A stretch of 28,268 nucleotides of DNA from a virus: the IMG/VR virus record IMGVR_UViG_3300035187_001657, positions 1 through 28,268 of that record. One strand, written 5' to 3'. The notes under the pieces are model-generated. The model searched no databases. It was not told the DNA's origin and worked only from the letters and a program-made list of their open reading frames with translations. The translations under genes were made by a program, and so were the position numbers. Below are positions 23,310 to 25,223 of this stretch, piece after piece; within the stretch, counting starts at the first letter, position 1, and each line of letters opens with the position of its first letter.

Positions 23310-23456
23310 ATGCGCGCCTTGCTGATAGCGCTGGCACTGGCACTGTCGGGGGGTGTTACGGCGCCCCACTACTTCCGCGACGACCGCGGGCAGTGCCACG
23401 CTATCAGTGAAGGCCGTGTATATTTCAACGTTCCGTGCTGGCACGGGGGCCTCTGA
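23310..23456 (+). CDS. Small exported peptide with signal sequence, 48 aa
   Basis: ATG at 23310, one base after the previous stop. It begins MRALLIALALALSGGVTAPH: a short basic start, a hydrophobic core and 'GGVTA' as a probable cleavage point, i.e. a Sec signal. The mature part of about 30 residues is 'PHYFRDDRGQCHAISEGRVY...CWHGGL' with two cysteines. Such a product would reach the periplasm, so an envelope or anti-superinfection role is possible. The stop is inside the terminator stem. No upstream site is obvious beyond coupling. Confidence 0.58.
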   Translation: MRALLIALALALSGGVTAPHYFRDDRGQCHAISEGRVYFNVPCWHGGL

Positions 23457-23473
23457 CCTAGTCAGAGGTTTTT
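23450..23473 (+). terminator. Intrinsic terminator at the end of the DUF2800 operon
   Basis: CCTCTGAC (23450-23457), CTA loop, GTCAGAGG (23461-23468), then TTTTT (23469-23473). The stop codon of the 48-aa gene is within its left arm. The T-tract is also the left end of a 149-base inverted-repeat element. Confidence 0.88.
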
Positions 23474-23617
23474 GGAGGAAGTTGTCAGGGCCACTAGCCC
23501 AGCAGCGTGAAGCCGCTGCCACCGTTTTAATCCGACAATGGCGGATAGGTGTATGACAGCAACAGCAGAGGTGTCCAGGTTCGATCCCGAGCGCGCCCTG
23601 ACAACTTCCCCCAAAAA
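23469..23617 (+). ncRNA. Candidate structured RNA with a 23-base closing stem
   Basis: Bases 23469-23491 and 23595-23617 are inverted copies with a single mismatch in 23 positions; the core is GAAGTTGTCAGGGC/GCCCTGACAACTTC, with T5 and A5 at the ends. The 103 bases between can form GCAGCG/CGCTGC (23502-23519) and ATCCG-ACAATGG-CGGAT (about 23529-23545). No credible coding frame crosses it. The design suggests a stable RNA or a cis-acting transcript structure. Confidence 0.6.
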
Positions 23618-23849
23618 TAAACGCCACAACCGAGAACTTCTAGTGTAGTATCTACTACTTACATCTGTGGGGGCTGGGACTCCTCCAAAGCAGACTTCGA
23701 TTGGCCCCGCAGTTATGGGCCTGGATGGTTAGATCGCCGTGCCCACTTGGATTCACATCACGGCCTTCAGTACGCAACGCGGCCCCAGCCTGTAAATAAT
23801 ACAGCCGCGGAATCCAGGCAATCGGCCCACTTTTTCAGGAGGAATTGTT
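23618..23849 (+). promoter_or_regulatory. Operator plus structured leader of the polymerase operon
   Basis: There is no gene in these 232 bases. A perfect GTAG-N6-CTAC site (23645-23658) comes first. Then several stems are possible: GGCTGGG/CCCAGCC (23672-23678 and 23784-23790), GGCCC/GGGCC (23703-23707, 23717-23721), GCCGTG/CACGGC (23736-23741, 23759-23764), CTGTA/TACAG (23790-23804) and the longer-range GCCTGGAT/ATCCAGGC (23719-23726, 23812-23819). The last cannot form with the second, so two conformers may exist. A strong ribosome binding site follows (AGGAGGA, from 23837). Confidence 0.5.
23645..23658. promoter_or_regulatory. Operator, GTAG-N6-CTAC
   Basis: GTAGTATCTACTAC is a fourth perfect copy of the palindrome. 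A possible -10 TACTTA (23656-23661) follows, but no good -35 precedes it, so this promoter would need help or be weak. Confidence 0.55.
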
Positions 23850-24083
23850 ATGTCGTGGTACGAGTATTGCCCCGATCCGTTTGACGACATGGACGGATAC
23901 GGCAACGAACGAGACAGCGATGGCGGCGGATACCCGCCCAGCAAACCGACGTGCAAGTTTTGCGGCAAGGCGAACCTCACGTGGGGCCACACCGGCAAGG
24001 GCTGGAAGCTGTACGAGGGCTACGAACGGCCGCATGTCTGCAACAGAACTTCAACCAACGACTTCGAGGATTTGACGAAATGA
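23850..24083 (+). CDS. Zinc-ribbon-like small protein, 77 aa
   Basis: A 77-residue protein with an excellent AGGAGGA site. The first 30 residues are acidic and Asp/Gly/Tyr-rich (MSWYEYCPDPFDDMDGYGNE). Then Cys35-x-x-Cys38, His47 and His62-x-Cys64 form a likely zinc site: 'CKFCGKANLTWGHTGKGWKLY...PHVC'. It begins the operon that holds the Mom-like protein and polymerase. No family is assigned; a DNA- or protein-binding adaptor is plausible. Confidence 0.6.
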   Translation: MSWYEYCPDPFDDMDGYGNERDSDGGGYPPSKPTCKFCGKANLTWGHTGKGWKLYEGYERPHVCNRTSTNDFEDLTK

Positions 24084-24337
24084 ACACCCAACTTTTCCAC
24101 TGCGTGGATGGCGCGCAAGTTATCACCCGGACCAAAGGCATATTCCACCAGCGGCCTGTCTATCGCCGCGGCGCGCGGCTCTACGCTGGCACCGGTGGGG
24201 GCTTCATCCGTCTTGGCCAAGGCGACGCCACCAGCAACCCGAACACCGCGTGGGAGGGGTTGGACATTCCGGACTACCTGCTCCCGAACATCGTCTTCGA
24301 CAAGCTGCTCGGCCCTGTCTGGCAGAACAACAAGTGA
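24080..24337 (+). CDS. Unknown protein, 85 aa
   Basis: An ATGA overlap joins it to the zinc-ribbon gene. The product (MNTQLFHCVDGAQVITRTKG) contains RRGARLYAGTGGGFIRLGQG and ends 'YLLPNIVFDKLLGPVWQNNK'. It reads as a small beta-barrel with a helical end. No family recognised. Confidence 0.58.
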   Translation: MNTQLFHCVDGAQVITRTKGIFHQRPVYRRGARLYAGTGGGFIRLGQGDATSNPNTAWEGLDIPDYLLPNIVFDKLLGPVWQNNK

Positions 24338-24564
24338 CCCCCACCGAGATCCGCCGCGCCAAGCGGCGCTGCGCCCTCCTGAACGCGATCAACGGCGACC
24401 ACGTCACGGTGCTCGAATACGTGAGCTACCGGGCGCAGGCCCGCCCCCTGCGGCACTTGGTGCTGTTCGGCGTCGCGATCTACGACGAGGCCCGTCTCGC
24501 ACGCCTGGCCGCGCACTGGTTCGCGCGGTTGTTGAAGCTGCAAAAGAAGGCGAGGATGGGGTGA
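24334..24564 (+). CDS. Unknown basic protein, 76 aa, GTG start
   Basis: GTG at 24334 overlaps the previous stop (GTGA). The product (MTPTEIRRAKRRCALLNAIN) is basic, with 'RPLRHLVLFGVAIYDEARLA' and a long C-terminal helix. No strong ribosome binding site is seen, so translation depends on coupling. The 5' end is basic enough to bind nucleic acid. Function unknown. Confidence 0.55.
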   Translation: MTPTEIRRAKRRCALLNAINGDHVTVLEYVSYRAQARPLRHLVLFGVAIYDEARLARLAAHWFARLLKLQKKARMG

Positions 24565-25223
24565 TTGTCCAGCGCATAGACAAAGCTCTTGCGGATAAAG
24601 TTATCCGGGAGAAGCACTACTCTCGAAGGCTCGGTGTTTTCTGGGAGGGTTACGGCCTGTTCGATGGCAGCGACCTCCTCGGGGTGTGCTGCTTCGGGCA
24701 ACCCTCTGCGCCGATACAGAAGCATGCCTTCAAAGACCGTGACTTCCGGCTGTACGAACTGACCCGCCTAGTCGTCGAGCAGGGGGTCAAGAACGGGGCG
24801 AGCGCACTGATAGGTGGAGCGCTGGCCCTGCTTTCGGAGCGCCCGGCGGCGGTCATCTCCTACGCGGACTCCGCCCACGGACACTGCGGGATCGTGTATC
24901 AGGCGACGAACTGGCTATACACCGGCGCGGTGAAGGCCCACGACTCGCTCTATCTGGTGGATGGCGTGCCGACACACCCCATGACCCTGCGCGACAAGCT
25001 CGGGATTCTGGACCCCGCCCGCTGGGCAAAAGAGCACGGCATCGCGCGCATCCCGGCGCAGCCCAAGCACCGGTACTTTCAGTTCGTAGGAAACAGAAAA
25101 GAGAAACACACAATGCGGAACAAGCTGGCATACCCTGTCCTCCAAGCGTACCCGAAGGCCGACAAAACCATGTACGACGCGGGCCCTACAATCTCACATA
25201 TTTTCGGAACGGACCTGGCGTGA
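24561..25223 (+). CDS. Mom-like DNA modification protein
   Basis: GTG at 24561 overlaps the previous stop (GTGA); AGGA precedes it. An in-frame extension to 24108 overlaps two other genes and reads as Arg/Ser/Pro noise, so it is rejected. The 220-residue protein has HYSRRLGVFWEGYGLFDGSD, then LLGVCCFGQPSAP, 'YELTRLVVEQGVKNGASAL', and 'SYADSAHGHCGIVYQATNW' followed by LYTG. The 'SYAD...GH.G.VYQA.NW.Y.G' block is the mark of the Mom family of GNAT-like proteins, which in phage Mu add a carbamoylmethyl group to adenine and protect DNA from restriction. It overlaps the polymerase gene start, so replication and modification are linked. Mu needs host dam and Com for expression; a zinc-ribbon gene at 23850 would be a loose parallel. 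Confidence 0.75.
   Translation: MIVQRIDKALADKVIREKHYSRRLGVFWEGYGLFDGSDLLGVCCFGQPSAPIQKHAFKDRDFRLYELTRLVVEQGVKNGASALIGGALALLSERPAAVISYADSAHGHCGIVYQATNWLYTGAVKAHDSLYLVDGVPTHPMTLRDKLGILDPARWAKEHGIARIPAQPKHRYFQFVGNRKEKHTMRNKLAYPVLQAYPKADKTMYDAGPTISHIFGTDLA

Follow-up and report, generated by a model that had tools for sequence, protein, structure and literature searches.

A covarying, doubly pseudoknotted element in a viral record represents a previously unnamed family of phage RNAs

The 28,268-base viral record IMGVR_UViG_3300035187_001657, referred to as the window (the whole stretch of DNA analysed), carries a 149-base element that, judged by comparative sequence analysis, belongs to a phage RNA family not named before, new against Rfam 15 and the literature searched. 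The family comprises at least 27 copies in phages and viral contigs, and the substitutions among them indicate that natural selection maintains the shape of the RNA and lets its sequence drift. The − strand of the window encodes structural genes; the + strand carries the replication module, which holds the element, with genes for DUF2800 and Enc34-type ssDNA-binding proteins on its 5' side and a DNA polymerase A gene on its 3' side. The interval from the ssDNA-binding gene to the element contains a short open frame with a lipoprotein- or signal-like product (MRALLIALALALSGG..., 23310-23456), and a gene for a Mom-like DNA modification protein (24108-25223; PF25680, E 5e-31) adjoins the replication module.

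The initial annotation drew attention to this stretch as a pair of 23-base inverted arms enclosing 103 bases without a gene. The coordinates and match count were reproduced: the arms (TTTTTGGAGGAAGTTGTCAGGGC and GCCCTGACAACTTCCCCCAAAAA) match at 22 of 23 positions. Their chance origin, already regarded as very unlikely, is indeed so, with about 1.5e-5 such pairs expected for the composition of the window and loops of up to 200 nt; a scan of the full window for 23-nt arms with at least 20 matches returned this single location. The + strand RNA folds at −66.5 kcal/mol where shuffled sequences average −45.2 (z −5.1), and the two internal hairpins proposed from the sequence, GCAGCG/CGCTGC and ATCCG/CGGAT, are real helices conserved among the copies (P2 and P3b, respectively). 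The view that no gene lies inside is upheld: the open reading frames that overlap the element do so mechanically only, and core lengths in the family range over 90-109 nt without triplet periodicity, so the element is non-coding. An annotated hypothetical protein (UOF79481.1 in MW202621; L136, 2453-2698) overlies another copy and is probably not a real gene. A candidate for a second structured RNA in the window, at 23618-23860, was rejected on its folding (z +0.45).

The element matches none of 4227 Rfam families, as had been suspected. Around it, Rfam 15 gave no convincing match, with three chance matches outside the element (E 6-9), and over the whole window no family reached its gathering score. 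Titles and abstracts, with bioRxiv and subscription papers outside the scope of the search, held no publication describing the family. A computational survey cataloguing putative structured RNAs of viruses and phages was reportedly published by Fremin and colleagues in 2023.

In two phages, Xanthomonas phage DoCa5 and Sulfitobacter phage SupP_AX, BLASTN recovered the interior of the element but not its arms; it is unannotated in either, and both copies have the same layout, with closing stems unrelated in sequence. Pattern scans built on the conserved interior yielded further copies in IMG/VR contigs and in one 55-kb siphovirus genome, whereas a scan with the arm sequence gave 119 matches, all due to chance, because the arms are not conserved. 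A seed alignment of 17 copies underlies the covariance model (R1) that made the 27-copy alignment; the copies scored from outside the seed are L123, L125, L126, L127, L208, L211, L212, L221, L223, and L224. The window copy scores 126.9 bits against R1, though it belongs to the seed itself, and it has the P1 clamp, the CACUAG-type junction and PK1, the pairing of the P3b loop with the triplet before GG-T-loop-CC. More divergent candidates (L207, L209, L213, L215, and L219) have the T-arm sequence in common with the family, but score 18-27 bits and are not counted as members. They were left out of the alignment, as was a twenty-eighth copy, L133 (640-775), which lacks the 5' half of the element and has the 3' half fused to the beginning of a gene resembling GIY-YIG endonucleases.

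Covariation carries the structural model (Table 1). Over the 27 copies, standard pairs fill 94.2% of base-pair cells, whereas shuffles reach 66.7% and slid controls no more than 44.5%, and 28 of the 34 pairs show changes on both sides; the covariation score is 0.61, compared with 0.15 for shuffles and about 0.10 or less for slid partners. The seed alignment behaves similarly (91.6% paired cells; shuffles, 69.5%). An alignment made by a model is biased towards that model's own nested pairs; the two pseudoknots, PK1 and PK2, were not supplied to it and are still 97% and 85% paired. The search of relatives for compensatory changes in the 23-base stem, proposed as a check, found a stem sequence that differs in every relative and is always complementary: among the cells of P1, Watson-Crick pairs account for 369, G·U for 29, A·C for 6 and other combinations for 15, and its distal nine bases are 28% identical between copies, that is, random. 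Among nested pairs G·U outnumbers A·C by 45 to 6; this excess, with that in P1, identifies the molecule as an RNA of the + strand. Together with the Rfam negatives, the covariation supports the initial reading, namely a discrete RNA, structured and roughly 150 nt long, that belongs to no known family. The arms are paired as that reading held, but the conserved part is the interior rather than the arms, and both pseudoknots and the T-loop had been missed.

Table 1. Features of the element and its 5' flank in the window
Feature	Position	Strand	Sequence or content	Basis
Terminator-like hairpin, directly 5' of the element	23450-23473	+	CCTCTGAC-CTA-GTCAGAGG, then TTTTT; overlaps P1	Read in sequence
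P1, 5' strand (closing stem)	23469-23491	+		Inverted repeat; covariation in 27 copies
J1/2 junction	23492-23501	+	CACTAGCCCA	Begins with CACTAG in 18/27 copies
PK2, 5' strand	23497-23499	+	GCC; partner 23558-23560	Covariation, 27 copies
P2 hairpin	23502-23519	+	GCAGCG-TGAAGC-CGCTGC	96% paired, double changes in 5/6 pairs
P3a and P3b	23520-23551	+	CACC/GGTG and ATCCG/CGGAT; loop ACAATGG	Covariation helices, 27 copies
PK1, 5' strand	23539-23541	+	TGG, 3'-terminal triplet of the P3b loop	97% paired
J3/4 junction	23552-23564	+	TATGACAGCAACA; contains PK2 3' strand (23558-23560)	Alignment, covariation
P4	23565-23592	+		Covariation helices, 27 copies
P4 outer pairs	23565-23566/23591-23592	+	GC/GC	
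P4 bulge	within 23565-23592	+	AGAGGTGT	
PK1, 3' strand	23575-23577	+	CCA, in P4	
P4 inner pairs and T-loop	T-loop 23580-23586	+	GG/CC, enclosing tRNA-type T-loop TTCGATC	T-loop in 23/27 copies
P1, 3' strand	23595-23617	+		Inverted repeat; covariation

Across the family, P1 spans 7-25 bp of free sequence and terminates in GGC/GCC or a variant of it. P2 usually has 6 bp and is missing in a few relatives (e.g., L208, L211, and L224). The P3b loop follows the pattern xCAA-NNN, and its NNN pairs with the NNN that precedes GG in the T-loop arm to form PK1; the six triplet pairs seen are GGG/CCC, UGG/CCA, UGA/UCA, GGC/GCC, GAC/GUC, and UGC/GCA. PK2 joins J1/2 to J3/4, with double changes in all three of its pairs; two of these form in the window copy, and the third fails to form in 12 of the 27 copies. 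J3/4 usually ends in AACAG or GATAG, and P4 follows the pattern GGTGT-NNN-GG-TTCGATC-CC. In 18 copies the seven-base T-loop has the canonical tRNA sequence, and 5 more have a close variant of it; the 4 copies that lack it (L123, L125, L126, and L127, the clade of DoCa5) carry GGTTGAGTGG on an extended P4 in its place and retain PK1. A kissing contact between the P2 loop and the T-loop was considered and rejected, as the T-loop persists in copies that lack P2, and the P2 loop in those that lack the T-loop.

Each matching record holds one copy. Carriers include members of the Schitoviridae (SupP_AX) and Mesyanzhinovviridae (DoCa5), the 55-kb siphovirus, many IMG/VR contigs and many unclassified phages, with sizes of up to 156 kb; where hosts are known they are Pseudomonadota. 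A covariance-model search of 385 and 369 genomes (754, from two proteobacterial classes) found no copy, under strict filters that may miss weak ones. An exact-motif scan of 84,980 species gave no true copy among 50 matches, which, judged from their reading frames, are chance occurrences inside coding genes (FKBP-type isomerases, ribosomal protein S6, and others). Within the limits of these collections, the family appears confined to phages. Its neighbours differ between lineages: an ssDNA-binding gene lies upstream in the window, L131, L205, and L216; N4 gp43-like and AAA genes adjoin the element in L124 and L220 (AAA in L220); a terminase gene is near it in L123, L125, L126, and L212; a GcrA-like gene is its neighbour in L206 and a Ro60 gene in L211. 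The element is thus not tied to one downstream gene, and the conserved link to a single class of downstream gene that marks a riboswitch or gene-specific leader is not seen.

On present evidence, with moderate confidence, the element is best regarded as a gene for a stand-alone, structured small non-coding RNA some 120-150 nt long, present once per phage in unrelated tailed phages, clamped by P1 and acting in trans. The RNA would be transcribed within a replication or terminase operon, and the P1 duplex would let host RNases such as RNase III release and protect it; once released, it may bind a host or phage protein in trans through its conserved core, for which the CACUAG junction, the CAA-NNN loop and GGUGU-NNN-GG-UUCGAUC-CC are candidates. 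A first guess at the partner is a host tRNA-handling protein that reads the T-loop; that T-arm mimicry is essential is made less plausible by the four copies that lack the T-loop and keep PK1. A trans-acting, P1-clamped RNA with a host factor as partner fits best. More tentatively, the family may form a new class of phage RNA machine that binds and reprograms or blocks a host RNA-handling protein during infection, whether in tRNA processing, modification, translation or RNA-targeting defence.

Several observations count against reading the element as an RNA gene. A scan found no promoter near it, a terminator-like hairpin stands directly upstream, protein clustering of 18 carriers gave no family common to all (PolA in 10, helicase in 9, DUF2800 in 8), and PK2 loses its third pair in many copies. 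The initial annotation had the element begin in the T-tract of a terminator; this is right for the sequence, a hairpin at 23450-23468 followed by TTTTT, but that hairpin is not among the calls of a terminator scan of the window. The TTTTT can also pair with GGGGG 5' of the same hairpin.

Cis action, ribozyme activity and a Y RNA role, in that order, remain as rivals. An unlikely alternative is that the element acts in cis on its transcript, as a leader, an antiterminator, a processing or stability element, or a structured UTR regulating the adjacent gene. It occupies short intergenic gaps on the strand of its neighbours, with a start codon often 30-70 nt further on, and closely follows a gene in the window, L131, and L134; but the downstream gene changes from lineage to lineage, the next clear gene in the window starts 230 nt 3' of the element, and P1, at up to 25 bp, is too long for easy switching, overlaps no ribosome-binding site and is followed by no terminal U-tract. 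In many copies the next same-strand gene has its own ribosome-binding site 3' of the element.

That the RNA is self-cleaving or otherwise catalytic, with a new fold (for instance, a tRNA-trimming ribozyme), is improbable on the sequences compared. The compact double pseudoknot, the many invariant unpaired bases and the free-sequence closing stem would suit a ribozyme, and the DoCa5 element lies 3' of a tRNA-like sequence, phage theta ribozymes being known to trim tRNAs (PMC10879173). Against this, DoCa5 is the only one of the copies read in which a tRNA is directly adjacent, the element matches no Rfam ribozyme, and, as its closing stem ties the two ends together, there is no evident cleavage product.

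The T-loop and long stem were the grounds for examining a link to Ro60, in which the element would be a phage Y RNA, the tRNA-like partner of a Ro60 (TROVE) protein; this is very improbable. Two of 20 carriers encode TROVE, compared with 72 of 50,697 phage records, counts that come from different search methods and non-independent records, and in one carrier, a 156-kb phage, the element has a YrlA-like RNA on one side and the Ro60 gene on the other, all within 3 kb. However, that phage already has, in the YrlA-like RNA, a separate RNA adjoining Ro60; 18 of the 20 carriers lack TROVE, three complete genomes among them; all eight other TROVE phages lack the element; and the Rfam YrlA model (RF02553) has no match in the window, its weak matches in other phages lying at other positions. 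The element is therefore not a general partner of Ro60. In L234 (1130-1480), a stable RNA of considerable length (z −4.5), which matches YrlA below threshold and contains what looks like a circularly permuted tRNA-Thr, lies between an HNH-like gene and the element, with a phage Ro60 gene further downstream; a 35-kb contig has a second phage Ro60 (TROVE) gene (L235, 5654-7033), some 4.5 kb downstream of its copy of the element. A palindrome acting at the level of DNA (the end of a mobile element, a replication hairpin or a recombination site), which the long, closely spaced inverted arms and the joining of a 3' half to a GIY-YIG gene fragment in L133 might suggest, is strongly disfavoured by arms unrelated between copies, tolerance of G·U and not A·C, and covarying internal helices and pseudoknots.

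Structured RNAs that were widespread but had no known function have repeatedly been recognised as novel riboswitches, ribozymes or RNA complexes. The spread of the element over unrelated phages, its lack of a conserved position and the failure to find a copy in bacteria suggest that it serves the virus, either within its host or in opposing it. The RNA has a covariation-supported structure model and is small enough for structure determination, and it could be deleted in isolated phages that carry it (DoCa5 and SupP_AX), so that phage-encoded RNA counter-measures or RNA cofactors become directly testable.

Among known systems, tRNA resembles the element in the canonical UUCGAUC T-loop of its inner P4, the 5-bp stem and 7-nt loop of P3b, and a total of four helices; the element differs in having no CCA end, a T-stem completed by a pseudoknot, a closing stem of up to 25 bp and copies without a T-loop. 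ARAGORN and RF00005 find no tRNA cloverleaf in it, and with no Rfam match and a varying class of downstream gene, the early judgement that it is neither a tRNA nor a riboswitch is sustained. Bacterial Y RNAs (YrlA) and Ro60 offer a second likeness, a small RNA with a long closing stem and a tRNA-like T-loop, encoded beside Ro60 in some phages; in contrast, the element has two pseudoknots and no tRNA-like domain in the YrlA order, and its carriers mostly have no Ro60 gene. GOLLD, ROOL and phi29 pRNA are likewise phage-borne structured non-coding RNAs of partly obscure function; GOLLD and ROOL are several times longer than the element, which has a core of its own and matches none of the three in Rfam. 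The HDV-like theta ribozymes of phages are pseudoknotted, phage-encoded and sometimes placed beside tRNAs (PMC10879173), but their topology differs, the Rfam HDV-like models do not match the element, and the element is not tied to tRNAs. A parallel in setting is a small RNA-like element of Bordetella phage BPP-1 (L285, 3135-3206), with perfect 16-bp arms and a folding z of −4.2; although its 40-nt interior is unrelated to this family and the family model does not match it, it occupies the same slot and local gene order as in the window, between an ssDNA-binding gene and polA, with arms that begin directly 3' of a terminator-like hairpin.
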